Shown: positions 6,366-55,561 of the stretch, in pieces | Position numbering within the stretch: position 1 is the stretch's first letter | Layout: each line of letters begins with the position of its first letter | Source of the DNA: Bremerella volcania | Lineage (GTDB): Bacteria > Planctomycetota > Planctomycetia > Pirellulales > Pirellulaceae | DNA length: 64,000 nucleotides | Assembly: GCF_007748115.1 (NCBI RefSeq) | Contig: NZ_CP036289.1 | Location: 2,356,001 to 2,420,000, forward strand | Direction of reading: 5' to 3' | Made by a program: the position numbers and the translations under genes | The notes under the pieces: model-generated | Told to the model about the DNA's origin: nothing | Seen by the model: only the letters and a program-made list of their open reading frames with translations | Database searches by the model: none

Positions 6366-6429
6366 GTGTGTGCCAATAAATCGAGTGTCCACGGGCTTAT
6401 CAGATGGCCAGTCATGGCCCGCCGTTGGC

Positions 6430-6468: not shown

Positions 6469-6489
6469 GCCACGCAAAGAGGTTTGGGA

Positions 6490-10080: not shown

Positions 10081-10113
10081 GACGACCTGACTCAGGTCCT
10101 TAAAGAAACGCTC

Positions 10114-10146
10114 ATAGGGTCGACGATAAGTCGACCCTATTTTTTT
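10114..10146 (+). terminator. Rho-independent terminator
   Basis: A perfect 11-base inverted repeat (ATAGGGTCGAC / GTCGACCCTAT) with a 5-base loop runs directly into seven T. It lies 33 bases after the BBP7 stop codon. Confidence 0.92.
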
Positions 10147-14805: not shown

Positions 14806-14831
14806 TTCGTGGCCCAATATTCAACATGAGA

Positions 14832-14860
14832 AAGCCTCCCTTACATGGGGGGCTTTTTTT
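14832..14860 (+). terminator. Rho-independent terminator
   Basis: Arms AAGCCTCCC and GGGGGGCTT (one G-T wobble), a 6-base loop and a seven-T run, starting 27 bases after the stop of the S8-like gene. Confidence 0.85.
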
Positions 14861-35192: not shown

Positions 35193-37679
35193 ATGAAAAA
35201 GAACAAGAGCCGCCAGCACCAGGTCCTTTCCAAGTTGAACAAGCGAGCCAGACGGCAGCGAACCGTACGCCGCATGGAGCCGCTGGAAACTCGATCCATG
35301 CTGGCGGGGGATGTGATTGCCGCCGTCCATAACGACTACATGTCGCACGACGTGAACAACGACGGTGTCTTCGACCAGATGGACGTCGATACACTGCTGT
35401 TGAATCTCCAGTCGAAGCAAGCTCAGCAGATGGCTTCGCGTGGCCTTCTGGAAGGGGAGCAGACCCTTTACCTCGACGTCGATAACGACGGTCGATTAAC
35501 CACCCGCGACTTGCTTTCCGCGATGGATGCCTTGTCGCTGGAAGGGGAACTCGCCGACGGGACGTTCAGTGCCGACGTAAATCTTCGCCTGATCACCAGC
35601 GGCGGCAATGTCAACGAGACGCAGACCGGGATGGCCGACATCAACGAGACCTTCCAGTTGGAGGTATGGCTGGAGGATACGTCCACGAACCCATCGAGCA
35701 TTGATTCGGCCTACGTCGACATTACCTTCAATTCGGCACTTTTGACGATGGATCCTACCACGGATATCGTCTTGGGGCCTGGGTTCGTCAGCAATCTTGC
35801 TCCTGACGTTCCCAATAATGTCACTCCCTATGGTGCACTGAACAGTCAGAGTGACTTCAATAACTTTGCCCTGGCAAATACGCTGCGGTTCATCGGTGGT
35901 TCTTCCAACGGTGCGGGAACGATTGACGCGAATCTCGGTCGTTTGGTCGCGACGCTGACCTTCACCACCGTTGCGGAAGGGACTGTCGACTTTGAAGTGG
36001 TCGTCCAAGACAATCCCCAGAGCACCGATCCGGCTGACTTGGCGAGTTCGTTCAACAACACAACGCGCAGCGGTGATATGTTCAGCGATGCGAATGTGAA
36101 CGCCACCTTCTTCTCGGGTGCGGAACAAGGTGGGTTCCCCCTGGAAATCTCGCGTTGGACCGGTGGTACCGTTTCGCTCGATATCATGGCGGAACCAGTC
36201 TCCGGTGCGAACTTCGATTCTTACGAAGTCGTGGAAGACTACCAGGAGGCTCAAGCCGTTCCTGCAGGGGATAACGATCCTCCGGTCGTGACGATTAACG
36301 GCATCCAGTACTATGTTCTGGACGTGCTGGAAAACGACATGGACAACGTGCCCAGCGCTGTTTCGGCACCTCGCGATCGCTTCAATATCGACTCAGTTAC
36401 CCAGCCTGCCCAGGGCATGGTGACTCGTGAACTCGACGCTCAAAATGTGCAGGAAATCGTCGATGCGGGGATCGAATCGCACCAGGTACTGCTGTACCAG
36501 GTGCCAACGGGAGTGGGTGGCATCTCGGAATCGTTTACCTACACCATTACCGACAGCGGTTTGACCAACAACACTGGAACGACGACAGCCACCGTCTTCG
36601 TTACGATCACCGAAGTCGATCAGGCTGTGCTTCTGCTGGAAGACCCCTATCTACTTGAAGTCGTCGCAGGCATCGAGAGCGATGTGATCGACATCATGGA
36701 TAACGTCACGCCAGGCGAACCTTCTGACGTGCCGACCTTCATCGGATTCTTCGATGAAAATGGCGGTCCTCTGACCGCTGGCGATCTGCAAGGTACGTTC
36801 ACGCCGGTTCTGGATGGAATGAACAATCCTACCGGGGAGTTCACCTACGTGTCGAACATTCCTGGTCTGACTGAGATGATCACTTACCAGGTCAGCGACG
36901 GTAACAACCAGATCACCACCGGCACCATCATCTTCAAGACGCTGTTTGACAGCCTGCTTTCCGGTGTCGTTTACTTTGACGCCGACAACGATGGTGTTGT
37001 CGATGACAATGCCAATACCAATGCCAGCCCCGAAATGCGGATTGGCGGCGTGACGATCGAATTGCTGGATAACGGCGGATCGGTGGTTGCCAGTACGATC
37101 ACCGACGCTTATGGGGCATACGTCTTCGCTGGCTTCGACGAAGGAACTTATTCGGTCCGCATTACCGATCCTCGCTTTACGCGTAAGGGGATTACCTCCA
37201 GCGGTAGCTTTACGCTTAGCGGTAATACGATCAGCGGCATCCAGGTTGGCGGCGGTCAGCCGGGTATCTTCACCGGTTTGAACTTCGGGTACCGCGGCCG
37301 CGATTACCAGTACATCGGCTTGGGTGATTCGATCGCATCGAACACTGAAGACAGCATCGTGCTGGCGTTCTCGAAGCCAGGCGGTCTGGATTCGCTCGAA
37401 TGGTATGCCGTGGACCTGGGCTGGGAAAACCTGGTGAATGTCCGATCCGATCTCTCCTTCTTCGATACCGCCACCGGGGCAAGCCAAATTGCCTTTGAGG
37501 TAGCCGTCGATGGGTTGGACGATCCGGTGATCGTGGTTCAGGCCTTCTCGCCATCGACCCCTGGTTACATGGTCGTTGCCAATGGACCTGAGGGCATGAT
37601 CGTTCGCATCAATGGTGGAGCCTCGGCCGTCATGACCAATCTGGCGGCAGCCGTCGATGCGGCTTTTGCCAGCCTGTAA
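35193..37679 (+). CDS. LEPR-XLL protein with N-terminal dockerin, cohesin-like and cadherin/SdrD-like domains
   Basis: The product is 828 residues. The first 27 residues are very basic. LEPR-XLL is at 28-40 (MEPLETRSMLAGD). Unlike its neighbours, the dockerin-like EF-hand pair comes straight after it (DVNNDGVFDQMDV at 53-65, DVDNDGRLTTRDL at 95-107). A cohesin-like beta domain follows (about 127-310, with FQLEVW and VDITFNSALL). Cadherin/Big-type segments span about 365-590, and an SdrD-like B domain lies at about 590-680 (LSGVVYFDADNDGVVDD ... TITDAYGAYVFAGF). The C-terminal region contains no recognisable enzyme motif. The short C-terminus (AAFASL) lacks the acidic tail of its paralogues. 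Confidence 0.88.
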   Translation: MKKNKSRQHQVLSKLNKRARRQRTVRRMEPLETRSMLAGDVIAAVHNDYMSHDVNNDGVFDQMDVDTLLLNLQSKQAQQMASRGLLEGEQTLYLDVDNDGRLTTRDLLSAMDALSLEGELADGTFSADVNLRLITSGGNVNETQTGMADINETFQLEVWLEDTSTNPSSIDSAYVDITFNSALLTMDPTTDIVLGPGFVSNLAPDVPNNVTPYGALNSQSDFNNFALANTLRFIGGSSNGAGTIDANLGRLVATLTFTTVAEGTVDFEVVVQDNPQSTDPADLASSFNNTTRSGDMFSDANVNATFFSGAEQGGFPLEISRWTGGTVSLDIMAEPVSGANFDSYEVVEDYQEAQAVPAGDNDPPVVTINGIQYYVLDVLENDMDNVPSAVSAPRDRFNIDSVTQPAQGMVTRELDAQNVQEIVDAGIESHQVLLYQVPTGVGGISESFTYTITDSGLTNNTGTTTATVFVTITEVDQAVLLLEDPYLLEVVAGIESDVIDIMDNVTPGEPSDVPTFIGFFDENGGPLTAGDLQGTFTPVLDGMNNPTGEFTYVSNIPGLTEMITYQVSDGNNQITTGTIIFKTLFDSLLSGVVYFDADNDGVVDDNANTNASPEMRIGGVTIELLDNGGSVVASTITDAYGAYVFAGFDEGTYSVRITDPRFTRKGITSSGSFTLSGNTISGIQVGGGQPGIFTGLNFGYRGRDYQYIGLGDSIASNTEDSIVLAFSKPGGLDSLEWYAVDLGWENLVNVRSDLSFFDTATGASQIAFEVAVDGLDDPVIVVQAFSPSTPGYMVVANGPEGMIVRINGGASAVMTNLAAAVDAAFASL

Positions 37680-37760: not shown

Positions 37761-39203
37761 TTAGTAGTGGTATTCCATACCGAAGGTCAGGCCGACAACC
37801 CAGAAGTCCTGTTCGATGAAGCTGAACTGAGGATCGGTTGGGTTAACGACGCTGGGGTCGATGTTCGGATTGATCAAGGTCGCTGCGGTCGATACGTCGC
37901 TGAAGTACACGAAGTTGGCCCCCAACTTGAAGTCGAGGTTGCAGTTGTAAGCGTAGATCATATCGACCGTCGCTTCAGGAATGTAAGCGAACTGATCGCG
38001 GCTAAAGCTGCCCGAGTTGGTGCTGCGAGCGTAGATCCCCTGATTGTCCGACAGGACGCCGTTGATGGTCGTCGAGCCAGAAATAGTGGCTTCCTGCTTC
38101 ATGCCACCCAGGCTGATCTTACCCATCGCACGCCAGCTGAAAGGGCCGTCCTGGAATTCGGCGATCAAACCCAACTGGCCGCCGTGGAATTCGTTGGTCG
38201 CGGCGAAGCTGTCTCGGTAGGCAACCACGTCACCGACCGAAAGCGTACTACCGGTGTCTTGGTTGGTGAACTGAGCGTTAATCGCGAAGCTGTCTTCAAA
38301 CTTGGCGTAGCTATAACCGGTGACGAAGTCCCAGCGGTTGCCGTGGTTGGTGTGAATATGCTTGGTGACGAAGACGTCGCCCATGTACAGGTTGTTTTCG
38401 TTGTTCAGGGCAATCGTCGTATTGTCCGCGGCGTTGGTACCGGTACCCGGCAAGGCCACAACCACCGAATCTTGCAAGCCGGTGTTGGTGTTAAAGAACG
38501 GGAATGCCAACGTCGTGAAGGAATTGGAACCGGTGTTGTAGTTGGCTCCATCGTCTTCCAGTGCCAGGAAACGGCCGCCGACACTCCAGTTTTGGTAATC
38601 GTCCAGCCATAGGCCAATCGTGATACGGCCACCCAGGCTGGCATCGCCCGATTCATACCCGTCGCCGAACAGAACTCGCGTGGTGGCGGCACCCAGAATG
38701 CCTTCGTCCGCCGGATCGCTGGTCGTCAGGATCGCTGGGTAATTTCCACCGTGACGCCAGACAACCAGCGTGTCGAAGCTTCCGTAAGCTCGAGGTGGAA
38801 GTGCACAACCGTCGTCGCAGGCACCGCCGGCGACGTTTTCGTATTGAACGTAATCGCCGGCAGGTTCGTACATCGAACCATCGACCGGACCACCGTATTG
38901 CATGCCGGGGTTCGTTTGACCGTTGGCATTGGCGGCAGCCATGTAAGCATAAGGATCGGGAGCGCCCATCATGGGACCAGGGCCAGCCATGGGGCCCATT
39001 GGGCCAGGAGCACCCATCATCGCTTGAGGTGCATACCCCGGTTGCATCCCAGCTGGTGGCATTCCGACGGGATTATAGGGAGCAGGAGCACCGGCGGGAT
39101 ATGGGGATCCCATCGGAGCATAACCCTCTTGGGCAAAGGATCGACCTGAGCCGAGTAGCACGGCCGCGATCGAGAAAGCTAGGGTGGAGTAGTTAAGCTT
39201 CAT
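37761..39203 (-). CDS. BBP7-family outer-membrane beta-barrel protein (second copy)
   Basis: The start at 39203 gives a signal peptide (cleavage after SFA, residue 24) and 480 residues in all. A Pro/Gly/Met-rich segment (25-110) precedes the barrel. BBP7 features include RAYGSFDTLVVWRHGGNYP, SLGGRITIGLWLDD, GNRWDFVTGYSYAKF and a C-terminal WVVGLTFGMEYHY ending in an aromatic residue. It is probably an outer-membrane protein of unknown cargo. It is related to but clearly diverged from the copy at 8542, whose N-terminal Cys-rich segment it lacks. It is divergent from the SecA-like gene. Confidence 0.9.
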   Translation of the reverse strand: MKLNYSTLAFSIAAVLLGSGRSFAQEGYAPMGSPYPAGAPAPYNPVGMPPAGMQPGYAPQAMMGAPGPMGPMAGPGPMMGAPDPYAYMAAANANGQTNPGMQYGGPVDGSMYEPAGDYVQYENVAGGACDDGCALPPRAYGSFDTLVVWRHGGNYPAILTTSDPADEGILGAATTRVLFGDGYESGDASLGGRITIGLWLDDYQNWSVGGRFLALEDDGANYNTGSNSFTTLAFPFFNTNTGLQDSVVVALPGTGTNAADNTTIALNNENNLYMGDVFVTKHIHTNHGNRWDFVTGYSYAKFEDSFAINAQFTNQDTGSTLSVGDVVAYRDSFAATNEFHGGQLGLIAEFQDGPFSWRAMGKISLGGMKQEATISGSTTINGVLSDNQGIYARSTNSGSFSRDQFAYIPEATVDMIYAYNCNLDFKLGANFVYFSDVSTAATLINPNIDPSVVNPTDPQFSFIEQDFWVVGLTFGMEYHY

Positions 39204-39741
39204 GTTGTGTGCTCGCAAACTAATGCTGTCGCTCCCAAGGCCCTGCCTCGTTCCGAAGTACGGAAGGAGTTACAAGAGCTACCGCTTGCGTCTGATGGAC
39301 ATCCAAAATCGAATAGCCAACGACTAACTTGGTTTCATAACGAGCCAAGTCGATCGGGCGGAATGGTTTCTTTTGTCAGGACGCTCGCCCTGCGCTCGAA
39401 CGGTCCGCGTACGATTATTCCGGACGTATTAGGAATGTCGGCCGTCAGGTGTGTGCCGGTTAAGCAAAAAGCAAGGTGCAACCCGTATAAACGGAATTCT
39501 CCAACCAGAACGGCGGGAAATCGTGAAAATGGGTGTTTTAGGAAGAGTTTGACGACTATGTCAGGTCGTGCAGGTCGTAGTGGACCTTGTATCGATCAAG
39601 CTTGGCAAATCTTAGGAATCCCCTTGCGGAATATTGGGAACGGAAAGACTTGTCTTTCATACTAAAATCTAATGTGGGCAACGGTTAGAATGCCCCAACC
39701 ACCTATCGTAGTGGCAGCACACCTACGGGGACCGTAATAGT
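39204..39741. other. Divergent intergenic region between BBP7 and the SecA-like gene
   Basis: This is 538 bases without a convincing gene; the plus frame at 39207-39665 has no protein-like pattern. Promoters for both flanking genes should lie here. A GTATAAAC element near 39486 is a weak -10 candidate. Confidence 0.4.
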
Positions 39742-41763
39742 TTGGATACCAATCAACAGACCTTGGAAGCACCCCAGGCGGAAGAGTCGAACAAGCCGGA
39801 AGCTCCGCAGCGGGGAGCTCCTCGCAAGTTTTCCGCCAACCCGTTGGGGGCGGCCTATTCGCAGATAACCCGATCGGGGCTCGCACGCTTCGTGGCGAAG
39901 CTACCACTGATCGATCGCTTCGAAGCAGAGCTGAAAGATCTCTCGGACCGCGACCTGCGCAAGCACAGCCTGGGCCTGCGCCATCGGGCCAAAAGTGGTG
40001 AGCCGCTATATAAGTTGCTTCCCGAAGCGTTCGCTTTGGTCCGCATTGCGGGTGCTCGCACGCTGAACATGCGCCATTACGAGGTGCAGCTGATTGGCGG
40101 GATGATCATGTTCAATGGTTCGATTGCCGAGATGGAAACGGGGGAAGGGAAAACGCTGACCGCAACCCTGCCGACCTATCTTTATGCACTGCCTGGTAAA
40201 GGAGTGCATGTGGCCACGGTGAACGACTACCTGGCCGCCCGTGACGCCGAGCTGATGATGCCCATCTATAAGATGTTGGGAATGACGGTTGGCGTGATCG
40301 AATCCCAAATGTCCTCACCAGATCGGCGAAAGGCATACGCTTGCGACATTACTTATGGGACGTCGAAAGAATTCGGTTTCGACTTCCTCCGAGACCGACT
40401 TCTCATCCGACAGACCCGCGAGCAAGGTTTGGGCGTGCTGGGGCCACTGCTAGCGGGCAAGTCGGAGAAAAGTGAAGAGCCAGTTCAGCGAGAGCATTTT
40501 TTCGCATTGGTTGACGAAGCGGACAGTGTTTTGATCGATGACGCCCGAACGCCGCTGGTGATCAGTGCGATTCCTGGCGAGGCGGAAAAGGTCGCCGTGG
40601 CTTGCCATCGCTGGGCTGCCAAAAGTGAAGAGGAATTCGAGGAAGATCACCACTACGAATACGACCACGATAAGAAGTCGGTCGAACTAACCGTTTCCGG
40701 GCGACTATTGGTCCGGCAGATCCCCAAGCCGAAACTGCTGGACACCGTAGGCCTGGTCGACCTGTACGACTACGTCGAGCGAGCCATCAAGGTCAAACGC
40801 GACTTCCATAGCGGGCAGCACTACGTGATCCGTGACGGAGAAGTTGTGATCGTCGACGAGTCGACCGGGCGTATCGCCGAAGGTCGAAAGTGGAGCTACG
40901 GCATCCACCAGGCGATCGAGGCCAAAGAAGGTGTCGAGGTGACGGTTGCCACCGGGCAAGCTGCCCGAATCACCGTTCAAGACCTCTTCTTACGCTACCG
41001 TCACTTGGGTGGGATGACCGGTACGGCATCGAGTTCCAAAGGGGAATTCAAGAAGATTTACAAGCTGAACGTGATCAAGTGTCCTACTAACCGCATCCCG
41101 CAGCGGAAACTTTGGCCAGATCGCGTGTTCGGCAACAGCGATGCCAAGTGGGCGGCGATTGTCGATGAGATTCGCGAGATCCACTCGCAAGGGCGACCTG
41201 TGCTGGTCGGTACGCGAACGATCGAAAAGAGCGAGCATCTCTCCAAGCTATTAGAAGAGGAAGGAATCGATCACGAAGTCCTCAATGCCCACCAGGTAGC
41301 GGTCGAAGCGGACATCGTTTCCCGCGCCGGGCAGCCAGGAAAAGTGACCGTCGCCACGAACATGGCTGGTCGTGGTACCGACATCAAGTTAGGTGACGGG
41401 GTCCACGCATTGGGCGGCTTGCATGTGATTTGCACGGAGCTGCACGACTCGGCTCGGATCGATCGTCAGTTAGTCGGGCGTTGTGGTCGTCAGGGAGACC
41501 CCGGCAGCACGCGGCAATTTATGGCCTTGGATGACGACTGCTTGCTGGTTGGTCTGGGGCCGAAGCGATACAAGAAGCTGGTTGCCTACGGTGAAGAGCG
41601 GCTCGGCGAGCTGCCAGGCTACTCCAAGCTGTTCCGAAAGGCGCAACGCAAGATCGAGAAGAAGCACTTCAGTGATCGCAAGGTTCTACTGTATCACGAG
41701 AAGCAGCGTAAGAAGATGCACCGCGAAATGGGACAAGATCCTTATCTGGATTCGCCAGATTAG
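39742..41763 (+). CDS. secA: Short SecA-like preprotein translocase ATPase (accessory paralogue)
   Basis: The product is 673 residues from a TTG start with a GGGGA site upstream, against 840-950 for housekeeping SecA. It has the SecA DEAD motor: Walker A METGEGKT (131-138), DEAD box at 258-261 followed by SVLIDDARTP, a preprotein-crosslinking region at about 275-400, and NBD2 with ATNMAGRGTDIKLG and QLVGRCGRQGDPGS. It stops soon after the first part of the helical scaffold (QRKIEKKHFSDRKVLL). The helical wing, the rest of the scaffold and the Cys-rich zinc tail are therefore absent. It should drive ATP-dependent protein export at SecYEG. Its place next to membrane-fusion proteins amid LEPR-XLL genes suggests a specialised role. 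Confidence 0.9.
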   Translation: MDTNQQTLEAPQAEESNKPEAPQRGAPRKFSANPLGAAYSQITRSGLARFVAKLPLIDRFEAELKDLSDRDLRKHSLGLRHRAKSGEPLYKLLPEAFALVRIAGARTLNMRHYEVQLIGGMIMFNGSIAEMETGEGKTLTATLPTYLYALPGKGVHVATVNDYLAARDAELMMPIYKMLGMTVGVIESQMSSPDRRKAYACDITYGTSKEFGFDFLRDRLLIRQTREQGLGVLGPLLAGKSEKSEEPVQREHFFALVDEADSVLIDDARTPLVISAIPGEAEKVAVACHRWAAKSEEEFEEDHHYEYDHDKKSVELTVSGRLLVRQIPKPKLLDTVGLVDLYDYVERAIKVKRDFHSGQHYVIRDGEVVIVDESTGRIAEGRKWSYGIHQAIEAKEGVEVTVATGQAARITVQDLFLRYRHLGGMTGTASSSKGEFKKIYKLNVIKCPTNRIPQRKLWPDRVFGNSDAKWAAIVDEIREIHSQGRPVLVGTRTIEKSEHLSKLLEEEGIDHEVLNAHQVAVEADIVSRAGQPGKVTVATNMAGRGTDIKLGDGVHALGGLHVICTELHDSARIDRQLVGRCGRQGDPGSTRQFMALDDDCLLVGLGPKRYKKLVAYGEERLGELPGYSKLFRKAQRKIEKKHFSDRKVLLYHEKQRKKMHREMGQDPYLDSPD

Positions 41764-42082
41764 CCAGTATGATGCGGTTTCGAGACAGATGGAACGAAGT
41801 CACCCTCTGGTCCGTCGAAACGTTGCGTTTTATTATCCAAATGGCAGCAAAGCTTGTAAGATTTCTTACCGTAACTTCTTGTCAGATAGTGAACAAACGA
41901 CTCTTGGGTCGTGTAGAGTTCTTCGGCGATACGACCCTTGTAACCCGCACAGCCTGCCGCAGAGCATCCCTCGTTGACACCTTTTCGGGTTTCAAGATTT
42001 TCGATTCTCACCTCCCTTGTTATGGTGAGACGTAGGATTTTGCGATCGCGAATCGATCGGCCTCTAACCTTAAATTCCCATT
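41764..42082 (+). other. Intergenic region with a small inverted repeat
   Basis: These 319 bases separate the SecA-like and GAF/HlyD genes. An inverted repeat TCTCACC / GGTGAGA (42006-42030, 11-base loop) lacks a T run, so it may be an operator or leader hairpin and not a terminator. No terminator follows the SecA-like stop, so read-through is possible. Confidence 0.4.
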
Positions 42083-44146
42083 ATGAATAGTCCCGGCATG
42101 TCCACAGAGCCCTCGTCCGTGAATCCCGAGACCCTCGAAAGCACTAAAAAGCAGATTCGAGGTCTGATTCAGGAGATTGCCCAGCTTTCCAAACGGGATG
42201 TACCACCAGAGGAGTACTTCAAAGAAGTCTTGCCTAAAGTGGTTTCCGCATTGGCTGCCGTGGGTGGTGCTGCCTGGATCTATGACGACCAGCGCCGGCC
42301 GCAACTGATTTACCAAATCAATCTTGCCCGCGGTCTTGTCGATCCGAAAAGTGACGAAGGCATTCGTCACCTTCGATTGATCGAATCGATGTTCAAGGGC
42401 TCCGAAGCCCAGCTCTTGCCACCGCAGTCAGGCGGGGCCGAAGAGAACTCGGCCGGCAACCCGACCAACCAACTTCTGGTGGTCGCTCCGATCCAAGTCG
42501 AAGACAAGGTCGAAGGGGTCATCGAGATCTTCCAGCGACCGAACTCGGCCCCCAACAGCCAACGCGGTTATCTCCGTTTTCTGGAGCAGATGTGTGGGCT
42601 GGCAACCGACTGGTTCAAGACTCGCAAGCTGCGTGACTTCAACGATCGGCAATCGTTGTGGTCGAAGATCGAACAGTTCAGCCGCGCCGTTCACGAGAAC
42701 CTCGACCTGCGTCAAACGGCCTACACCATCGCCAACGAAGGTCGTCGGCTGATTGGCTGCGACCGCGTGTCGGTCGTCTTGCGACGTGGCCGCTGGAAGG
42801 TGGAAGCCGTCAGCGGACAAGACGTGTTCGACTCGCGGGCGAGCCAGGTGCAGCTGCTCGGCAAGCTGGCCTCGCGCGTGATTGAAACAGGCGAACCGTT
42901 CTGGTTCAGCGGGCAGACCGAAGATCTGTCTCCGCAACTGGAAACGGCAGTCCACGACTATGTCGATGAATCGCACACCAAGACGATCGCCGTCATTCCG
43001 CTGCGTCGCCCGGAACATGCCACCGACAACATGCAGCGGGAAGAGGGGGAAGAAGAACGCCAATTCCAGGGCGAGATCCTCGGCGCGCTGGTGGTCGAGC
43101 AGATCGAAGACAGCTCGCAGCAGGAAGAGTTCTCCAAAGGGGTCGAACTGATCTCGGAGCACAGCAGCCGTGCGTTGGCCAATGCGATCGACTACAACTC
43201 GATTCCGCTGACGCCCGTTTGGCGTCTGCTTGGTAAGTCGAAGGTCTTGGTCACCGCCCGAAATCTTCCCAAGACGGTCCTGGCCGTGGTTGCCGCCGTG
43301 GCGATCATTGCCGCTCTGTTCTTGATTCCCGCTCCCTTCAAAGTCGCAGGCGCCGCAACGCTGACGCCGGTGGTGCAGCGTGAAGTGTTCGTCAATGTCG
43401 AAGGGGAAGTGATTGAAGTCCCGGTCGACCACGGCGATCACGTCGAGCAAGGGCAAATGGTTGCCCGGCTGCGGAACACCGAGCTTGAACGACAATACAA
43501 ACAGTTCACCGGCGATCGCGAAAAGACCTTGTCGACGTTGCAAGCCCTTGAGTTTCGTAAGCGTCGTCCGGAGAGCCAGCGAAATGCGGCGGAAGCAACG
43601 CAGTTGACCATCGACCTCGGCCAGGCTCGTCAGAAGTACGAACAACTGAACGAACAGGTCGCCCTGCTCGAAGAGAAGATGGCTCGTCTCGATGTCGCCA
43701 GCCCGATTGCCGGCGAGATCGTGACCTGGGACGTGCGAGACAACTTGATGCAGCGTCCCGTTCAGCCAGGCCAGGTGCTGATGACCGTCATCGATCCGAC
43801 GCAGGATTGGATTCTGGAAATTCGCATGCCGGAGAAACGAATCCAACACATTCAGTACGCCTTGGAACATCAGCAAGGTTCCGAAGCCCTGGAGGTGACC
43901 TACATCATGGCCAGCGATCCAGGTCGCCAACTCACCGGTTACGTCACCGAGATCCAGCGTCTGGCTCAGCCTGACGAGGAAGAAGGGCAGATCGTGAAGC
44001 TGAAAGTGGCGATCGACAAGCAAGACATTCAGCATCTGCGAGCAGGTGCCACGGCAACCGCCAAGGTCCACTGCGGAACGGCTTCGTTGGGCTACACCTG
44101 GTTCCACGAACTGTTCGAGTTCGTCGAATCCCGAATTTTGTTTTAA
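42083..44146 (+). CDS. GAF-domain / HlyD-type membrane-fusion protein
   Basis: The product is 687 residues. The N-terminal cytoplasmic half has two GAF-like domains (about 30-165 and 205-372; LVVAPIQVEDKVEGVIEIF, then CDRVSVVLRRGRW and LGALVVEQI). A single transmembrane helix lies at about 397-420 (AVVAAVAIIAALFLI). The periplasmic half is a HlyD/RND-type adaptor: a lipoyl-like half (VNVEGEVIEVPVDHGDHVEQGQ), a coiled-coil hairpin (about 480-545), the second lipoyl half (ASPIAGEIVTW) and a beta-barrel. This joins a ligand or signal sensor to a periplasmic adaptor across the membrane. It begins an apparent operon with the next two genes (gaps 88 and 51 bases). Confidence 0.9.
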   Translation: MNSPGMSTEPSSVNPETLESTKKQIRGLIQEIAQLSKRDVPPEEYFKEVLPKVVSALAAVGGAAWIYDDQRRPQLIYQINLARGLVDPKSDEGIRHLRLIESMFKGSEAQLLPPQSGGAEENSAGNPTNQLLVVAPIQVEDKVEGVIEIFQRPNSAPNSQRGYLRFLEQMCGLATDWFKTRKLRDFNDRQSLWSKIEQFSRAVHENLDLRQTAYTIANEGRRLIGCDRVSVVLRRGRWKVEAVSGQDVFDSRASQVQLLGKLASRVIETGEPFWFSGQTEDLSPQLETAVHDYVDESHTKTIAVIPLRRPEHATDNMQREEGEEERQFQGEILGALVVEQIEDSSQQEEFSKGVELISEHSSRALANAIDYNSIPLTPVWRLLGKSKVLVTARNLPKTVLAVVAAVAIIAALFLIPAPFKVAGAATLTPVVQREVFVNVEGEVIEVPVDHGDHVEQGQMVARLRNTELERQYKQFTGDREKTLSTLQALEFRKRRPESQRNAAEATQLTIDLGQARQKYEQLNEQVALLEEKMARLDVASPIAGEIVTWDVRDNLMQRPVQPGQVLMTVIDPTQDWILEIRMPEKRIQHIQYALEHQQGSEALEVTYIMASDPGRQLTGYVTEIQRLAQPDEEEGQIVKLKVAIDKQDIQHLRAGATATAKVHCGTASLGYTWFHELFEFVESRILF

Positions 44147-44234
44147 CCCCAGCATCGTTTCGATGCGTTCATTTCATGCTTTTTCGGCCTGCAATGAGTA
44201 TGCAGGATCGATCATCGCACGAGGTAAGAAACCC

Positions 44235-45170
44235 ATGTCCAAGTCTGTGATTCTATCGGTTGCCACTTTGCTACTGATTGCCGGACACGTTTCCGCTCAA
44301 ACGTCCGCGACGCCATCCCAGGTCGTCGTCGAACGCTGCCTGGTGTCGTTGATCGACGAAGTCAATGTGCCGGCACAAGAGACCGGCGTGCTGTTGAGCA
44401 TTCCTGTCGAACGTGGCGACTACATCACCGTGGGAACCCATATCGCACAGATCGATGATTCCCTGCCAACCAAGCAGCGTGAGATTGCCAAGCTGAAATG
44501 GGACAAGGCCACCGAACAGGCAACCAACCAGGTCGACATCAAGTACGCTGCTAAAGCGGCCGAGGTCTCGAGGGCTGAGTTTGAACAGCTCGAAGCCGCC
44601 AATAAAGGCGTCAAAGGTGCGATCGCCGAGATCACCATTCGCAAAGCCAAGCTTCAGTGGGAAAAGGCCCTGCTGCAAGCTGAACAGGCCGACATGAACT
44701 TCAAGGTCGCCGGCATGACCGCTGGCGAAGCGAAGGCCGAGATGGAAGCGGCCGACATGATCATCGACAAATGCAAGATCACCACGCCGATTGATGGCGT
44801 CGTCGTGCAGAAGTATCGCCACGAAGGGGAATGGGTTCGTCCCGGTGATCCACTGATGCGTGTCGTCGGGCTGAAACGCCTGAAGGTCGATGGCTCGTTG
44901 AATGCCGACCAGTACGTTCCCGGAATGGTGATTGGCAAGCCGGTCACGGTCCGAGCCGAAACGCCGGGCGGGCTGATCACGCTGGAAGGAACCATTACTT
45001 TTGCCAGCCCCGAAATCGATGCCACCGGCAACTTCGATTTCTCCGCGGAAGTCCAAAACCAACTCGCCAACAATTCGATGAGCCTTTACCCAGGGGACGT
45101 GGCCGATGTGACCATTCACCTGGATCGTCCTTCGACGCTCAGTGCTCATTTCGAGGGTAACCGCAAATAA
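44235..45170 (+). CDS. Exported HlyD/RND-type periplasmic adaptor
   Basis: The ATG at 44235 has a GAGG site 10 bases upstream and starts a signal peptide (cleavage near VSAQ, residue 21). Upstream in-frame ATGs overlap the previous gene and are rejected. The product is 311 residues. A lipoyl-like half (VPAQETGVLLSIPVERGDYITVGT), a helical hairpin (about 80-175), the second lipoyl half (CKITTPIDGVVVQKYRHEGEWVRPGD) and a beta-barrel are seen. It should sit in the periplasm and bridge an inner-membrane partner to an outer-membrane partner. No RND pump or ABC transporter lies next to it; the neighbours are the GAF/HlyD and M50/HlyD proteins. Confidence 0.92.
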   Translation: MSKSVILSVATLLLIAGHVSAQTSATPSQVVVERCLVSLIDEVNVPAQETGVLLSIPVERGDYITVGTHIAQIDDSLPTKQREIAKLKWDKATEQATNQVDIKYAAKAAEVSRAEFEQLEAANKGVKGAIAEITIRKAKLQWEKALLQAEQADMNFKVAGMTAGEAKAEMEAADMIIDKCKITTPIDGVVVQKYRHEGEWVRPGDPLMRVVGLKRLKVDGSLNADQYVPGMVIGKPVTVRAETPGGLITLEGTITFASPEIDATGNFDFSAEVQNQLANNSMSLYPGDVADVTIHLDRPSTLSAHFEGNRK

Positions 45171-45221
45171 GCGGTTTCGCGACAAGCTTACGACTCCCCT
45201 TCCCCGCCCCGAGAGTTAGCA

Positions 45222-47471
45222 TTGGTCAGTCTTCAAGACAGTTTGGTTGCCAGTAGCAGTCGTCCGCTGCCGCTGCGTAAGCGTCCCGACCTCTCCGCCC
45301 GGCAGCACACCTACCAGGGGCGAGGTTACTGGGTCGTGAAGGAACCGATTGGGCTGAACTACTTTCGCTTCCAGGAAGAGGAATACGCCATCCTGAACAT
45401 GCTCGATGGCAAGACTTCGCTGCAAGAGATCAAAGAGAAGTTCGAGAAAGAGTTCGCGCCGCAGAAGATCAGCTTCAATGACCTGCAGCAGTTCATCGGA
45501 ACGTTGCACCGCAGCGGTCTGGTGATCACCACGGCGATGGATCAAGGGCGGCAGCTGAAAGTTCGCCGCGACGAGCGGAAGTGGAAAGAGACCGTCCAGT
45601 TGATGTCCAACATCCTGGCCGTCCGCTTCAAAGGGTTTGATCCCGATCGTCTGCTGACGGCGCTCAATCCGTATACTCGCTGGTTCTTTACGTTCCCGGC
45701 GATGATCTTAGTGATGCTGTTATGTGCCGCGGCCCTCACGCTGGTTACGGTGCAGAACGACGTGTTCCGCAGCCGTTTGCCGTCGTTTCAAGAGTTCTTT
45801 GGTCCGTCGAACTGGTTACTGCTGGGCGCGGTATTGGGCGTGACCAAGGTGCTGCACGAATTCGGCCACGGTCTGTCCTGCAAGCGGTACGGCGGCGAAT
45901 GCCACGAAATGGGTGTCATGTTCCTGGTGATGACGCCGTGTCTGTACTGCAACGTGTCCGACTCGTGGATGCTGCCCAACAAGTGGCATCGTGCGGCGAT
46001 CGGTGCGGCGGGAATGTACGTCGAAGTCTTTCTGGCTTCGATCGCCACGTTCGTGTGGTGGTTTAGCGAGCCCGGTTTGTTGAATCACTTGGCGCTGCAG
46101 GTGATGTTCGTTAGTTCGGTGAGCACGGTGATCTTCAACGGTAACCCCCTGCTCCGCTACGACGGTTACTACATCTTGTCGGACATCATGGAAGTTCCGA
46201 ACATGCGTCAAAAGGCGAGCAGCGTGCTGCATCGCTACATGTCGAAGTATTGTCTGGGGATGGAACTTCCTGACGATCCATTTTTGCCGGAACGAAACCA
46301 ATTCTTCTTTGGTCTCTACACCGTCGCATCCAACGTTTATCGCCTTTTCGTGACCGCCTCGATCATGCTGTTTTTGAACCAGGTCTTCAAGCCATACGGC
46401 TTGCAGGTCATTGGTCAGATGATCGCGTTGGCCGGGATCTACGGATTGGTGGTGATGCCTATCTATCAATTGTGCAAGTTCCTGTATGTCCCTGGGAGAA
46501 TGTCACAGGTGAAGCGGAAAAATGTGTTGATTACCGCCTCGGTCGTGGCAGCGGTGATCGCGGGAATCGTGTGCGTTCCCGTCCCCCAATGGGTGAAGTG
46601 CCCGGTGGAAGTGCAACCGAGAAACGCTGAGAGTGTCTTCGTGGTGGTGCCAGGTCAGTTGGAAAGCATGCTGGTCGAGCCAGGCCAACAGGTCACCCGC
46701 GGCACGAAGCTGGCCCGGGTCACCAATCTCGACTTGCTGCTGGAACTCTCCGAGTTGGAAAACGAAGAGGAACGCCTGGAGCTTCTTTCCGAAGCCCTCA
46801 ACAATCAGCGTTTGCGGGCCGAGCAAGGTGGCGAGGTGGAACAGACTTACCTGGAGGTCCTTCAGCAACTCAAGTCGGTTCAACAGCAATTGGAAAAGAA
46901 GCGTCAGCAGGTCGCGTTGATCGACGTACCTGCTCCGATTGATGGAACCGTGTTCCCGGTACCTGATAAGAAGAACCGTGGTGGTGGTGATAACGGCATG
47001 TTGCCGGAATGGTCAGGTTCGATCTTCGATACGAAGAACCAGGGGGCCAACCTTTCCACGAGCGACATCGTTTGCCAGATCGGTAACGCCGACGAGATGG
47101 AAGCCGTCCTCTATATCGATCAGGACCACATCGAACTGGTCAATCCCGATCAAGAGGTTGCGATCAAGTTGGATGCCTTCCCTGGGCGTACCTTCAAGGG
47201 ACGCATCGCGGTAATGGGAAGCAAAGAAGTCGAGTTCATTCCGCCTGCCCTCAGCACACAGCAAGGGGGCGACCTGCCGGCCATTACCGATCAAGAGACA
47301 GGACGGCTACGCCCGCAGAACGCGACCTTCCCGGCTCAGGTCCCTTTGGCCGGTGTCGACGAAGAGTTGAAACTGGGAATGCGTGGCCGGGCGAAAGTCT
47401 GGGTTCAATGGGAACCGATGGGAAGCCGCCTGTGGCGATACATTTCTCGCACGTTCCATTTCTACCTGTAG
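45222..47471 (+). CDS. M50-like membrane protease fused to PqqD-like and HlyD-type domains
   Basis: The product is 749 residues from a TTG start with a GAGAG site. Residues about 35-105 resemble a PqqD-like peptide-binding winged helix (YWVVKEPIGLNYFRF, EEYAILNMLDG). Transmembrane helices flank the M50 motif HEFGHGLSCKRYGGECHEMG (His212, Glu213, His216). The second site motif is NPLLRYDGYYILSD (308-321), with Asp314 the likely third zinc ligand. A further helix (about 430-460) leads to a HlyD-type periplasmic part with coiled coil (about 466-720). Similar fusions are found with peptide or protein export systems. It could trim or release substrates during export, but the substrate is unknown. 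Confidence 0.9.
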   Translation: MVSLQDSLVASSSRPLPLRKRPDLSARQHTYQGRGYWVVKEPIGLNYFRFQEEEYAILNMLDGKTSLQEIKEKFEKEFAPQKISFNDLQQFIGTLHRSGLVITTAMDQGRQLKVRRDERKWKETVQLMSNILAVRFKGFDPDRLLTALNPYTRWFFTFPAMILVMLLCAAALTLVTVQNDVFRSRLPSFQEFFGPSNWLLLGAVLGVTKVLHEFGHGLSCKRYGGECHEMGVMFLVMTPCLYCNVSDSWMLPNKWHRAAIGAAGMYVEVFLASIATFVWWFSEPGLLNHLALQVMFVSSVSTVIFNGNPLLRYDGYYILSDIMEVPNMRQKASSVLHRYMSKYCLGMELPDDPFLPERNQFFFGLYTVASNVYRLFVTASIMLFLNQVFKPYGLQVIGQMIALAGIYGLVVMPIYQLCKFLYVPGRMSQVKRKNVLITASVVAAVIAGIVCVPVPQWVKCPVEVQPRNAESVFVVVPGQLESMLVEPGQQVTRGTKLARVTNLDLLLELSELENEEERLELLSEALNNQRLRAEQGGEVEQTYLEVLQQLKSVQQQLEKKRQQVALIDVPAPIDGTVFPVPDKKNRGGGDNGMLPEWSGSIFDTKNQGANLSTSDIVCQIGNADEMEAVLYIDQDHIELVNPDQEVAIKLDAFPGRTFKGRIAVMGSKEVEFIPPALSTQQGGDLPAITDQETGRLRPQNATFPAQVPLAGVDEELKLGMRGRAKVWVQWEPMGSRLWRYISRTFHFYL

Positions 47472-47652: not shown

Positions 47653-47985
47653 ATGTCGGACGCCCCTGAAAACCAAGGTCAAGCTGCCCCAAAGCAAGTC
47701 GAATTGGACGAATCCGGCGCGATTGCTTGTTACGCCAACTTCTGCCGCGTGACGGGTACGCCAGAGGAGTTGATCATTGACTTCGGTTTGAATACCCAGC
47801 CGATGGTTCAATCGCAGGAAAAGATCAAGGTCCAGCAGCGAATCATCCTCAACTACTACACCGCCAAGCGTATGCTGGGGGCTCTGCACATGGCCGTTCA
47901 GCGTCATGAAGCTGCCTTCGGTACGCTCGAAACGGACATCCAAAAGCGCGTGATTCCATCGGCACAGCGTCCGGCCAGTGAATAG
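47653..47985 (+). CDS. DUF3467 family protein
   Basis: This is a 110-residue cytoplasmic protein with a good TAGGAGA site 9-15 bases before the ATG. The core (YANFCRVTGTPEELIIDFG, then KVQQRIILNYYTAKRMLGALHMAVQRHE) matches DUF3467, a small conserved family of unknown function common in planctomycetes and cyanobacteria. It is 181 bases after the M50/HlyD gene, and a terminator follows, so it is probably its own transcription unit. No partner can be inferred. Confidence 0.93.
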   Translation: MSDAPENQGQAAPKQVELDESGAIACYANFCRVTGTPEELIIDFGLNTQPMVQSQEKIKVQQRIILNYYTAKRMLGALHMAVQRHEAAFGTLETDIQKRVIPSAQRPASE

Positions 47986-48247: not shown

Positions 48248-51200
48248 ATGCTTGACTTAGATCCCATGGCCATAGTCGATTCCACTATCTTCGTAGCGGT
48301 TGCCGTCGTGATTGGGTTGTTGCTGACCGTATCGGCGGTGACGGCGATTGCGATGCGTGCGCTGCGCCAGACGCCATGCTATGCCGACAAACGACGACGT
48401 AGCCAATGGAAAGTGCAAGGGCAGCAACTCGAATCGCGACAGCTTCTTGACGGGGCGATGGGGAACGAGGCCTTGGCGCTGGAAGGAGAGTCCATCACCG
48501 TCCATGGGGTGACCTACGACAACGTCGATTTGAAGGCCCTCGCCAAGGCGATCGCCGACAGTGGAGCGATCTTCTTTGGTGCCGATTGGTGTCCTCACTG
48601 TACCCGGCAAAAGGGAATGTTCGGCGATGGTGCCGCTGACCTGCCGTTCGTCGAAGTCACGAATCCCAATCACACCCTTAATCAAGTCGGTTCCGACAAC
48701 AACATCACCCAGTTGCCTACCTGGGTATTCGCCGATGGCACGCGTGTGACCGGCGTGCTCGAGATCGAAGAACTTCTCGACTACACCGGACTTACCATCC
48801 CGCAAGGCGAGCCGTTGTACTTCGCCGAGATCCCGGATCAAACCGGGCTGATCTCGGGGCAGTCGTACCATGTTGCATTGGATGGCTACTCCCCTTCCGG
48901 CCAACCGTTGACGTACACGGTGACCTCGTCGTCCGGCACGGTCATCGCTTCGGTGATGCAAGGGAACAAAAGTCTGCGAATCTACACGAGCCGATTCGGG
49001 ACGATGGAGTTCTACTTATTCGAGCAAGAGGCGGGACGCGCGACATCTCGAATCATCGAACTGGCCGAGAGCGGCTTTTATGACGGCCTCACGTTCCATC
49101 GCGTTTTTCAAAGCTTCGTGTTGCAAGGGGGCGATCCGAATGGCAACGGAACCGGCGGTTCGTCGCTGCCCGACTTCAAAGACCAATTCAATCCTAACCT
49201 GCGACACAACGGCACCGGTATCTTGTCGTATGCCAAGTCATTCGACGATACCAACGACTCGCAGTTCTTCATCATGGAAGGCATCGCCCCGCACTTGGAC
49301 TTCCAACATACCGTCTTTGGTTATATGACCGAAGGGGAAGTCGTCCGCGAGTCGATCAGCGGCACGCCTACCGGCAGCAACAATTTGCCGCAATGGCAGG
49401 TCGTAATGGACGAGGTGTCGACGTTCGTCGACCTGGAGAATGGCGTTCTACGGTTGAAGATCCCCGAAGGGGCATCGGGAACTGAGACAATCACCGTTAC
49501 CGTATCGGACGGGCAAGGGCACACTCTCAGCCGATCGTTTGACGTCACCTATGCCTCGAACGAAAATTACACCTCGAACCCTTACCTGGCGTTCGTCCCC
49601 GACATCGCCATGACGCCTGGAAGTAGCCACACGTTTCAGTTGACGGCTACCAATCTGGACGGGGACGAGTTGATCTTCTATGATCAGTCGGACTTTGACC
49701 CACAAAACGACTATCTGCCTGCTTATGCACCCAACGGGCTGGTCTATTCGGTCGACAGTTCCACCGGTTTGTTGCAGGTGAATGCAAGCGCCGGACTTGC
49801 GCCGGGAGTCTACAAAATCGTCGTCGCCGTATCCAATGACCTGGATGGCGAAATCATCTCCGGTTTGATTGACTACGACGTAATTCAAGTCACCGTGGCG
49901 AATCGGCCGGTATTGAATCAGGATTTCGTCAATCTCAATGAAGACGGGTCGGTCACGTTCAATCCCCTGACCAACGATACTGACTCAGCCAGCACGCTTG
50001 ATCCGGCGTCCTTTCGTTTCCTGTCGCAGCCGTCGGTGGGTGAAGTATCGTACGACCGTGAGACAGGCGAAGTCACCTATACGCCCCCAGCCGATTTCCA
50101 TGGAACCGCTTCGTTTCAATACGATGCTGCAAACGAATTTGGTATCTACGGTACGCCTGCCACGGTGACCTTGACTGTTGCTCCGATCAACGACGAACCG
50201 GAAGCACTCGACGACGTTTTCCTGGCCGATCGAGATACGGCGACGCTTTTGCCGGTGTTGAAGAACGACGACAAGGGCCCCGGTGAAGCGAACACAACCG
50301 TACTGATTACTCTGGCATCAAACGCCACCGCGGCTGGCGGAACGGTTGTGGTCGTGGGTGACAACGTCCAGTATACGCCGGCAGCGAACTTCACCGGCTC
50401 TGATACGTTCACCTATACGATCGATGACGATGGCATGGAGTCGACCGCCACGGTAACGGTCGACGTGGGTGACGTCTCCAACTTCACGATCACGGCAGTC
50501 CGCGATCTGACCGATACCGGCGGCGACAGCATCGTCGATAGTCGGCCTCAGAGCGACGAAATCATCGGCGAATGGGATGCGTTCTGGTTGGAAGTGTGGA
50601 TCACGCCGGATGGCACCGGCGGAGACACCGTGACGGCGGCCTCCTCCACGTTAAACTTCGACTCGTCCATCTATCGGGCGACCTCGATCGTCATCGATTC
50701 GACGTTTACCGCGGCATCGGGAAGCGGCGTGAACAATGGATCAGGCACCGCCACCATCAACGTGACGTCCTCCGGGGTGACTCTCGCCGCAGGCGAACGT
50801 ATTCGCATCGGACGAGTCCGCTTCGAGCCCGTCGCCAATGGGCTGGATGCTCCTGAAATTGGTGAAACGCTGGGTGTCGATTTCAACACCTTCCTGACGT
50901 CGATGACCGGTGCCTCGCTGACCGTCGACGGAGTTGGCGTGGTGAATGGCCCAACCACGGATGTCGACCTTCCCGTTCGTTTGCTGCCGATGGTTTATGA
51001 CCTGAACGACGATGGCAAGGTAGGTGTCGTCGACTTCAGCATCTACATAAATACGATCGTAAGCAGCAACTCCAGCAGCTTCGTCGATTTCGACTTGTCC
51101 GGCGACATGTATGGAAGCGGGTTCTCGTTCTTCCGCTCGGCTTTCGGCGATACGCATGACGGCGTGAACCATGCGTTCGTTTGGTCGCCTGTTCTGCTGA

Positions 51201-51724
51201 AAGCGGCGATGAGTGACATGATCCTCACTACGCACATCAATGTCGGCAGCAGTGCCCAGTCGCTCAGCACCGAAGACGTTGCCACGGTGACCACGGCCCT
51301 GCCACCGTCGGTGATTACCAGCAGCATCGAAAGTGACACGAACGTCGTCACCATTCACATCGTCGACTTGCCGGGCACTCAATTGGCATCGACGATCGGC
51401 AATTCGATTTATCTCGATGCCAACGCCGCCGGTTGGGGCTGGTTCGTCGATTCGACTCCGCTTGATTCGTCTGAGTTCAGCGCCAATAGCGAGAACGGCC
51501 GATTGCTCGCGTCGAGTGCTTCCGCGGCTTCCGGCAAGATCGACCTGCTGTCGGTGCTGATGCACGAACTAGGGCACGTTGCCGGCCTCGAGCACACGAC
51601 GGATGGCCTGATGAGTGCAACCATTTCGCCGGGCGAACGCCTGATCGACTGGGATCAGGATGCGTTTGAAGAGAGCTTCTATGTCTCTGCCGTCGATTTG
51701 CTTTTCGGCAGTGAAGAAGACTAA
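48248..51724 (+). CDS. LEPR-XLL protein fusing thioredoxin-like, cyclophilin PPIase and metzincin domains
   Basis: The product is 1158 residues. This is the only LEPR-XLL protein here with a transmembrane helix (about 8-37) before the motif (GQQLESRQLLDGA, 58-70). A thioredoxin-like domain has WCPHC (Cys115/Cys118), similar to the domain found with VKOR-type oxidoreductases. A cyclophilin-type peptidyl-prolyl isomerase spans about 240-380 and keeps key residues (FHRVFQSFVLQGGDP, NDSQFFI). Cadherin/Big-type repeats lie at about 435-745, a cohesin-like segment with WLEVW at about 778-910 and dockerin-like EF hands at about 917-974. A C-terminal metzincin site HELGHVAGLEH (His1106, His1110, His1116) has Met in GLMSA. 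It is probably an anchored extracytoplasmic folding/processing factor. Confidence 0.92.
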   Translation: MLDLDPMAIVDSTIFVAVAVVIGLLLTVSAVTAIAMRALRQTPCYADKRRRSQWKVQGQQLESRQLLDGAMGNEALALEGESITVHGVTYDNVDLKALAKAIADSGAIFFGADWCPHCTRQKGMFGDGAADLPFVEVTNPNHTLNQVGSDNNITQLPTWVFADGTRVTGVLEIEELLDYTGLTIPQGEPLYFAEIPDQTGLISGQSYHVALDGYSPSGQPLTYTVTSSSGTVIASVMQGNKSLRIYTSRFGTMEFYLFEQEAGRATSRIIELAESGFYDGLTFHRVFQSFVLQGGDPNGNGTGGSSLPDFKDQFNPNLRHNGTGILSYAKSFDDTNDSQFFIMEGIAPHLDFQHTVFGYMTEGEVVRESISGTPTGSNNLPQWQVVMDEVSTFVDLENGVLRLKIPEGASGTETITVTVSDGQGHTLSRSFDVTYASNENYTSNPYLAFVPDIAMTPGSSHTFQLTATNLDGDELIFYDQSDFDPQNDYLPAYAPNGLVYSVDSSTGLLQVNASAGLAPGVYKIVVAVSNDLDGEIISGLIDYDVIQVTVANRPVLNQDFVNLNEDGSVTFNPLTNDTDSASTLDPASFRFLSQPSVGEVSYDRETGEVTYTPPADFHGTASFQYDAANEFGIYGTPATVTLTVAPINDEPEALDDVFLADRDTATLLPVLKNDDKGPGEANTTVLITLASNATAAGGTVVVVGDNVQYTPAANFTGSDTFTYTIDDDGMESTATVTVDVGDVSNFTITAVRDLTDTGGDSIVDSRPQSDEIIGEWDAFWLEVWITPDGTGGDTVTAASSTLNFDSSIYRATSIVIDSTFTAASGSGVNNGSGTATINVTSSGVTLAAGERIRIGRVRFEPVANGLDAPEIGETLGVDFNTFLTSMTGASLTVDGVGVVNGPTTDVDLPVRLLPMVYDLNDDGKVGVVDFSIYINTIVSSNSSSFVDFDLSGDMYGSGFSFFRSAFGDTHDGVNHAFVWSPVLLKAAMSDMILTTHINVGSSAQSLSTEDVATVTTALPPSVITSSIESDTNVVTIHIVDLPGTQLASTIGNSIYLDANAAGWGWFVDSTPLDSSEFSANSENGRLLASSASAASGKIDLLSVLMHELGHVAGLEHTTDGLMSATISPGERLIDWDQDAFEESFYVSAVDLLFGSEED

Positions 51725-54740: not shown

Positions 54741-55561
54741 GTTTCCCATTCCTTGTACTCATTTCCCGGCGCAAAGCGACTTGGGAAGCGGGTGAAGTAC
54801 AACGTTTCGTGAATTCCGTTGGCAACGATCGTTCGCAATGATGGCAATATCCGTGTGGAATCGAACGGATGCGTTGTCCGTATTGGATTCGGTTTCATGA
54901 CCATCAAAAGTTTGACGGAAGTGCCGGATATCACTAGGTTTACTTCTTGATGGCTGGAAAATTCTACGCAAACTGCCTATCTTGTTGGCTCCTCTGCTGG
55001 GGGTTATCAAGCCGTTTCTGAAGGTCGGGAAAGCCGCATGATTTCAGTCGATTGGCGCGACCAGACCGATCCGCGGCCATAGCGAGCTTACGCAGAGCAT
55101 TCGTGCGCTTTTGCGCATTCGCTCACCCGTAAGATCACCATAGTCGGCAATATCGCTGTCTTTGCTATCTTGCCTAGCTGTTGGGCTTGTCGGTAGAAAC
55201 AGACGGGATATCGACGTAACACATTGAAATGTAAGGTCTTGTGGGGATAGCAGGGGTCTTGGAAGCGATTCCTAAGGGAACGACTTTGACGCTTAGCTCA
55301 GAATTGATGCGTCGTGTGGGCAAAATAAAGAGAATGGGCAATTAGATTCCTGGTAATTCATTGAAATTGATACAACCCCTGATTTTAATGGAACTACCTG
55401 ATCCGAGCATTCCTCTCTAACCCAGGTGGACTGTCTGTTCAGAAATCGGAGTCTCAAGGCTAGGCTTACCCCCTTCTTCCTAGTCTTCGTAAATCCACTC
55501 TCCACTTGAAACTGCAAACCGACCATTCCCCGGGAACTTTGATTGGCCGTTGGTGCAAAGT
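54741..55561. other. Long divergent intergenic region upstream of the second giant gene
   Basis: These roughly 820 bases lack a credible gene. A small perfect inverted repeat TGCGC-TTTT-GCGCA lies at 55104-55117. No Shine-Dalgarno site precedes the ATG at 55562. The region is long enough for promoters in both directions plus regulatory sites, but none can be named with confidence. Confidence 0.45.

Follow-up and report, generated by a model that had tools for sequence, protein, structure and literature searches.

How do the giant proteins that carry an N-terminal LEPR-XLL leader leave the cell? The question is raised by a 64,000-nucleotide stretch of Bremerella volcania DNA (contig NZ_CP036289.1, forward-strand positions 2,356,001 to 2,420,000; the window, numbered from its first letter), in which four neighboring genes, here called the module, are flanked by seven genes for LEPR-XLL proteins. 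An earlier note on the window had proposed that the four genes form dedicated export machinery for these proteins, with BBP2/BBP7 as a barrel partner. The co-occurrence of leader and module was borne out in three draws of genomes, whereas the barrel partner was not. We hold with high confidence that leader and module are linked. On balance, we favor the reading that the four genes make up a dedicated, ABC-free, SecA-driven export machine for proteins with this leader; the channel and the mode of recognition are less sure. Co-occurrence, adjacency, a fixed gene order and intact catalytic motifs are what we observed, and from these we infer the mechanism.

The module and the gene that follows it are:

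39742 to 41763, + strand: short ("secondary") SecA_DEAD ATPase, 673 residues, with SecA_DEAD, PP_bind and P-loop matches in Pfam; candidate motor.
42083 to 44146, + strand: GAF and HlyD/biotin-lipoyl protein, 687 residues; candidate inner-membrane adaptor with a cytoplasmic sensor half.
44235 to 45170, + strand: HlyD-type periplasmic adaptor, 311 residues, with a signal-peptide-like start.
45222 to 47471, + strand: fusion of a PqqD-like part, an M50 site-2-protease-like membrane domain and an HlyD domain, 749 residues; the PqqD part is a candidate for leader recognition.
47653 to 47985, + strand: DUF3467 protein, 110 residues; candidate accessory part.

Pfam domains and coordinates confirmed the four identities given earlier (short SecA, GAF/HlyD protein, exported HlyD adaptor and PqqD-M50-HlyD fusion). 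All four genes share the + strand with spacings of 319, 88 and 51 bases, the last two being the gaps already reported among the last three genes. The GAF/HlyD protein has a single strong hydrophobic segment (residues 394–427). The DUF3467 gene, absent from the earlier note, begins 181 bases after the M50 fusion gene. The statement that no pump is encoded here also held, as a Pfam scan of 21 window proteins gave neither an ABC nor an RND pump; unlinked pumps were not searched. The canonical SecA of the host genome (6.5 Mb, one contig) is located outside the window.

Both halves of the link have a published history. Kamneva, Poudel and Ward described the module in PLoS One in 2015 and called its role "completely unknown" (PMC4452313). 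The passages of that paper used here describe a secondary SecA_DEAD / HlyD / Peptidase_M50 / GAF-HlyD locus with a truncated SecA and no ABC transporter in the loci, spread sporadically over Planctomycetes, Verrucomicrobia, Proteobacteria and others, and its authors likewise proposed SecA as the ATPase and the M50 protein as the membrane part. According to the same paper, Methylobacterium extorquens AM1 is one of the carriers (META1p2399-2402). In these passages no substrate is proposed, and LEPR, giant and PF07595 are missing from the main text. The present genes resemble that module, as far as the same passages describe it, in gene types, in a truncated SecA lacking a full SecA_SW and in the co-encoded M50/HlyD, HlyD and GAF/HlyD proteins. 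As for the leader, passages of a second paper cite RRLxxExLExRxLLA, a consensus from R. baltica, as a novel signal suspected of directing export, and report 52 proteins with the related LxLExLExRxxP in Tuwongella immobilis, 20 of them detected and 8 of those solely in the fraction soluble in sodium dodecyl sulfate; 8 of the 10 longest proteins of that organism bear the LxLExLExRxxP-type motif (PMC8567305). A frame beside an M50 gene (L103:10957-15432) begins KKKLEDRIAPA, resembling this LExRxxP variant, and lies outside the coverage of the leader profiles introduced below. No literature joining leader and module was found in searches on LEPR-XLL, PF07595, HlyD with peptidase M50 and SecA, and related topics (subscription papers and preprints fell outside the search), and the passages on LEPR-XLL that these returned mention no machine. 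Module and N-terminal motif are each already published; the new part is the link between them.

The motif has two database entries, LEPR-XLL (NCBIfam NF012209, LEPR-8K) and Planc_extracel (Pfam PF07595), and neither listing names a machine. When the N-termini of five relatives were scanned with NF012209, four scored above its cut-off (L178, L184, L193 and L199) and one below (L033); two window leader proteins scanned gave no match at E ≤ 0.01. The sole window match to PF07595, in the 35193–37679 protein, scored under the cut-off in the protein set scanned with it. PF07595 is too short to serve as a leader detector: at E ≤ 10 it matched 346 of 392 genomes, and 8 of 14 controls as well. Therefore, we built two leader profiles of our own: A1, with 27 rows and planctomycete-trained, and A3, with 37 rows including one row each from G432 and G429 (G codes genomes, L codes loci). 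The thresholds applied (leader E ≤ 1e-3, machine M50 gene E ≤ 1e-90, distance 12 kb) were set after the lists had been seen. At the opposite end of the proteins, inspection of 20 closed frames by eye, not all of them certain leader proteins, gave no shared C-terminal motif. Two C-terminal stretches scanned with Pfam (L159 and L205) had RTX repeats and C-terminal M10 motifs in giant frames.

Does the leader follow the module? Across 392 Planctomycetota genomes, the M50 protein was present in 98. With A1, 42 genomes had a leader at E ≤ 1e-3; of these, 38 belong to the 98 M50-positive genomes and 4 to the 294 M50-negative ones (p = 1.1e-21). Removal of the 15 genomes that had supplied A1 rows (14 with M50, one without) left 24/84 against 3/293 (p = 2.1e-14). 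The best match was fetched in the 24 M50-positive genomes outside the A1 rows, and it was an N-terminal leader in all 24. In the M50-negative genomes G033, G149 and G255, the match lay 189–338 residues from the first start of the frame and was not N-terminal. Among 12 M50-negative genomes with a PF07595 match at E ≤ 0.01, a motif scan of the loci yielded a true N-terminal leader in one, G186. The short SecA also tracked the leader. Of 75 hand-picked planctomycete genomes, 39 had a leader at E ≤ 1e-3, and 37 of these had a short SecA, compared with 19 of the 36 without such a leader (p = 2.3e-5).

The association extended to other phyla. In 44 hand-picked module-bearing genomes not labelled as planctomycete (one, L150, labelled just "bacterium"), A1 matched in 41 at E ≤ 1 and in 28 at E ≤ 0.01. 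Thirty matches from other groups were fetched, and 29 proved to be N-terminal leaders with the pattern ExLEPRxLLSAD. Their frames reach 18,012 residues, a length found for an open frame in Thiomicrospira (L232, leader at G407:C10:53909-53953). Two proteobacterial families were then counted with A3 at three leader thresholds; most leader rows above E 0.064 (Burkholderiales) or E 0.041 (Rhodobacterales) were omitted, which leaves the counts at E ≤ 0.01 unaffected. The Burkholderiales family (that of G432, Ramlibacter; 130 genomes) has the machine M50 gene (E ≤ 1e-90) in 20 genomes, and a leader at E ≤ 1e-3 was found in 16 of these 20 versus 1 of the 110 without the gene (p = 6.6e-16). The single exception, G550, has a divergent M50 gene adjoining the leader frame. 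For the Rhodobacterales family (that of G429, Jannaschia; 124 genomes), the corresponding counts were 15/15 and 2/109 (p = 1.7e-17); of the M50-negative pair, G618 has a frame of just 36 residues and G653 has a divergent M50 gene. Frames of at least 1000 residues were counted in 15/15 versus 5/109. The outcome that the earlier note had named as refuting, module genes equally common in genomes without LEPR-XLL proteins, was seen in none of the three draws.

Leader and module are also neighbors. With a leader match up to E 0.3 on a frame of at least 700 residues, a leader frame lay within 12 kb on the same contig in 25 of 34 Burkholderiales and 15 of 17 Rhodobacterales module copies, 40 of 51 in total. 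Of these 40 frames, 39 were on the same strand as the module. Relative to the M50 gene, 28 of the 40 lay upstream and 12 downstream, and 29 had at least 6,000 residues (6,000–18,000). Such numbers bear on the idea that leader and module merely share a lifestyle, with giant adhesins and the module both common in, for example, particle-attached bacteria and no interaction between them. In its favor, presence in Planctomycetota follows lineages, and genome size was uncontrolled, but the contrasts within two proteobacterial families and the one-strand adjacency speak against it, and we give it almost no credence.

The gene order of the module was read in 80 relatives, the best among at least 546; being the nearest to a planctomycete query, they may give too much weight to the form with SecA. 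Relatives among these 80 were labelled as Planctomycetota, Verrucomicrobiota, alpha-, beta- and gammaproteobacteria, Desulfobacterota-type groups, Nitrospirota, Omnitrophota, Elusimicrobia and others, many of them metagenome-assembled genomes. Of the 79 loci with an M50 frame, 71 have SecA as the frame immediately downstream of the M50 gene; a GAF/HlyD gene is present in 73 loci, and in 71 of these it is the frame immediately upstream. An HlyD relative lay within 6 kb of the M50 gene in 55/80 loci, and a DUF3467 relative within 4.5 kb in 17/80. Proteins of the OEP/TolC type clustered near the module in 20/80 (two of the 20 checked with Pfam). Separately, a SapC-family cluster was seen near the module in 10/80 loci (including L176:160-990 and L205:14840-15646; two of the ten checked with Pfam). 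In Planctomycetota, SecA is no obligatory neighbor: often it is encoded in the same genome but away from the other genes, as the passages used from PMC4452313 also state.

HlyD-type adaptors usually pair with ABC or RND pumps. The HlyD parts could accordingly belong to ordinary type I secretion, working with an ABC exporter encoded elsewhere while the SecA copy is incidental, and TolC-type proteins are indeed encoded elsewhere in the host genome. The module resembles type I secretion in the HlyD-type adaptors, in a TolC-type protein near 20/80 loci and in giant predicted substrates, with RTX repeats in the two C-terminal stretches scanned (L159, L205). It differs in having a SecA-type motor in place of ABC, an N-terminal signal and an M50 protease part. 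We consider type I secretion very improbable, given that SecA follows the M50 gene in most loci of several phyla and tracks the leader, and that no ABC gene was found in the scanned window proteins or is described in the loci of PMC4452313, in the passages used.

We then asked what the short SecA could do. Its sequence contains a Walker A motif (GEGKT at 134), DEADS at 258 and GRCGRQGD at 579. Among 31 aligned short SecAs, these ATPase motifs are invariant or near-invariant, and Pfam found SecA_DEAD, P-loop and preprotein-binding domains in 31/31; SecA_SW is absent from the window protein and was found in 1/31. The AlphaFold2 model (predicted local distance difference test, pLDDT, 86.0; predicted template modeling score, pTM, 0.82) matches the SecA fold and terminates in one helix (628–662), with no wing/scaffold and no C-terminal linker. 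A profile of the short form scores most short forms above canonical SecAs, not all; the canonical SecA of G186 ranks among the short forms.

These features bear on a SecA2-like route, in which the short SecA would bring LEPR proteins to the ordinary SecYEG and the HlyD/M50 parts would serve outer-membrane crossing only. The strong similarity to SecA and SecA2 agrees with it, as do the top fold matches, which include SecA from SecA–SecY complexes. Against it stands the missing wing/scaffold: SecA_SW is nearly absent from the relatives, and the alignment with the solved SecA2 structure 6t4h ends at residue 619 of 781. The wing/scaffold region of SecA contains parts that engage SecY. We judge this route rather unlikely. 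In accessory SecA2 systems, an additional SecA-type ATPase serves just a few large surface proteins, which is a likeness to the present module; here, the motor lacks the wing/scaffold, its partners are HlyD and M50 proteins, and the hosts are diderm.

The M50 fusion has HEFGH at 212 and NGNPLLRYDGYY at 306, that is, the HExxH and NPLLRxDG-type motif of site-2 protease/M50 proteins in the membrane domain. Both sets of motif columns are invariant or near-invariant among relatives. In 27 relatives, Pfam (E ≤ 0.05) found M50 in 27, HlyD_3 in 23 and PqqD in 20. The predicted model (pLDDT 86.4, pTM 0.72) places long helices at the expected membrane part, its adaptor domain matches MacA/MexA-type structures, and its strands and helices at 25–97 are compatible with a winged-helix PqqD domain. 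The protein matched PqqD structures at E = 0.0058 and 0.017. Fold-based support for this end was set aside: all 50 Foldseek rows shown were adaptor (HlyD/AcrA-type) proteins, and the PqqD-like end therefore rests on sequence. The fusion also matched the daptide protease NF041824, a protease of ribosomally synthesized and post-translationally modified peptides, at E = 8.6e-56, but with 189.7 bits versus a cut-off of 300. The PqqD-like plus M50 layout is common to both; here, an HlyD domain is fused and the predicted substrates are giant proteins, not small peptides. Judged from conserved motifs and domains, the module parts look functional.

The predicted substrates in the window are:

10480 to 14805, + strand: LEPR-XLL protein, LEDRRLL, 1441 residues; subtilase, GEVED, dockerin.
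15382 to 29604, + strand: LEPR-XLL protein, LEKRELL, 4740 residues.
29937 to 32621, - strand: LEPR-XLL protein, LESRLAL, 894 residues.
32713 to 34677, - strand: LEPR-XLL protein, LEGREML, 654 residues.
35193 to 37679, + strand: LEPR-XLL protein, LETRSML, 828 residues; SdrD_B.
48248 to 51724, + strand: LEPR-XLL protein, LESRQLL, 1158 residues; cyclophilin, cadherin-like, C-terminal matrixin (M10) motif.
55550 to 64000, + strand: LEPR-XLL protein, LEIRDLL, at least 2816 residues, running past the window end; cadherin, Big domains.

All seven LEPR-type N-termini were present, on both sides of the module, as the earlier note had it. Its further claim that these proteins lack a normal signal peptide was judged by eye, with no predictor used: most leaders show no Sec-type hydrophobic core, but in the 48248–51724 protein a hydrophobic stretch precedes the LESRQLL motif. 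This bears on a further alternative, that LEPR proteins take some other path across, with the M50/HlyD module just trimming the leader or anchoring the product at the surface. M50 family members are proteases and HExxH is intact here, some module copies have no adjacent SecA, and elsewhere intramembrane proteases pair with sorting tags, as in rhombosortase and exosortase. However, most leaders lack the Sec-type core, and therefore no other route is evident; moreover, parts such as a SecA-type ATPase and three HlyD-type adaptors belong to transport. We regard processing or anchoring without export as distinctly unlikely.

Which protein would form the outer-membrane part? Four barrels had been claimed for the window, of which three have Pfam support:

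37761 to 39218: BBP7 barrel.
51782 to 53182: BBP2 barrel.
53379 to 54749: BBP2 barrel.

The possible fourth (8473–10080, 535 residues) gave no Pfam match. A scan of the planctomycete module loci listed, five frames either side, found BBP labels in five (L034–L037 and L049), four of them from the window's own family, and BBP2/BBP7 was dropped as the outer-membrane part. No TolC-family channel is encoded in the window; 18 OEP domain matches lie elsewhere in the host genome. TolC-type channels are the likelier partners than BBP2/BBP7 barrels.

Several observations weigh against a dedicated export machine. Association would equally fit processing or anchoring, and export by the module itself is what we infer. 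The PqqD match of the window fusion (E = 0.0012) is under the Pfam cut-off. In Planctomycetota, lineage is confounded with presence, and the product over mixed families, stratified by families taken from listings and leaving out genomes in no list, was just 4.5e-4. No leader at E ≤ 1e-3 was found in 60 of the 98 M50-positive genomes, where weaker matches were not inspected singly; even at E ≤ 0.3, no leader match came up in G315, G344 or G361, all three with the M50 gene. G030 has leader and M50 gene and no short SecA. Among the proteobacterial module copies, 11/51 have no leader frame within 12 kb. The B. volcania genome itself holds a second GAF/HlyD-HlyD-M50 trio with no adjacent SecA (L033, G000:C1:978000-997900); it is followed by a LEPR giant with a frame of 3536 residues and the leader RELEPRVVLAAD. 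A divergent proteobacterial M50 branch, with the M50 gene, a shorter GAF/HlyD-like gene and mostly an HlyD gene, had no SecA in the 13 loci read (L273–L282 and L286–L288). In the two proteobacterial families, 4 of 25 divergent-branch copies had a leader frame within 12 kb. This branch may be a sister system; several of its loci lie beside very large frames.

The clearest exception is G186, which has a true N-terminal leader (L113, G186:C203:3500-6053) and no M50 match. A short SecA was ruled out there: the only SecA match is a full-length canonical SecA with the wing/scaffold and the C-terminal metal-binding motif, and G186 therefore stands as an exception to the leader–module rule. The draft is 91% complete with 6% contamination and the leader lies on a 6 kb contig, so the draft may lack the module or the contig may be a stray. 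One exception among 392 genomes leaves our estimate unmoved.

How might a dedicated export machine work? PqqD-type domains bind the leaders of modified peptides, and by analogy the PqqD-like domain of the M50 fusion would bind the LEPR-XLL leader in the cytoplasm. The short SecA, with its ATPase motifs and preprotein-binding domain, would feed the unfolded chain to the M50 membrane domain, which, alone or with SecYEG, may be the inner-membrane portal. The M50 protease would cut the leader, and the three HlyD-type parts would reach across the periplasm as far as a channel of the TolC type. The GAF half, we would guess, tunes the activity. The products would be giant proteins at the surface or secreted.

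Taken further, leader and module may constitute an unrecognised secretion system, a reading that we find about evenly balanced. In it, a truncated SecA would replace the ABC pump, a PqqD-type domain would read an N-terminal leader, and the M50 protein would be both portal and leader peptidase. Its cargo would rank among the largest proteins of bacteria (about 18,000 residues in the longest frames), and its hosts would be Planctomycetota, Verrucomicrobiota, proteobacteria of several classes and, by labels, other phyla. Such a system would link a transport module and an export-signal motif that are both already published, the first lacking a known substrate and the second a known machine. Export of proteins between 5,000 and 18,000 residues long would then have its route and its signal, along with a test that needs one gene only, and LEPR-XLL proteins could by rule be annotated as exported. 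It would also mean that a SecA-type motor can power an envelope-spanning route without an ABC pump. Since the module and the genes for giant tagged proteins co-occur, often adjacent, in several phyla, our results suggest that the leader tag serves as a pass and the module as the gate through which a number of the largest proteins made by bacteria leave the cell.

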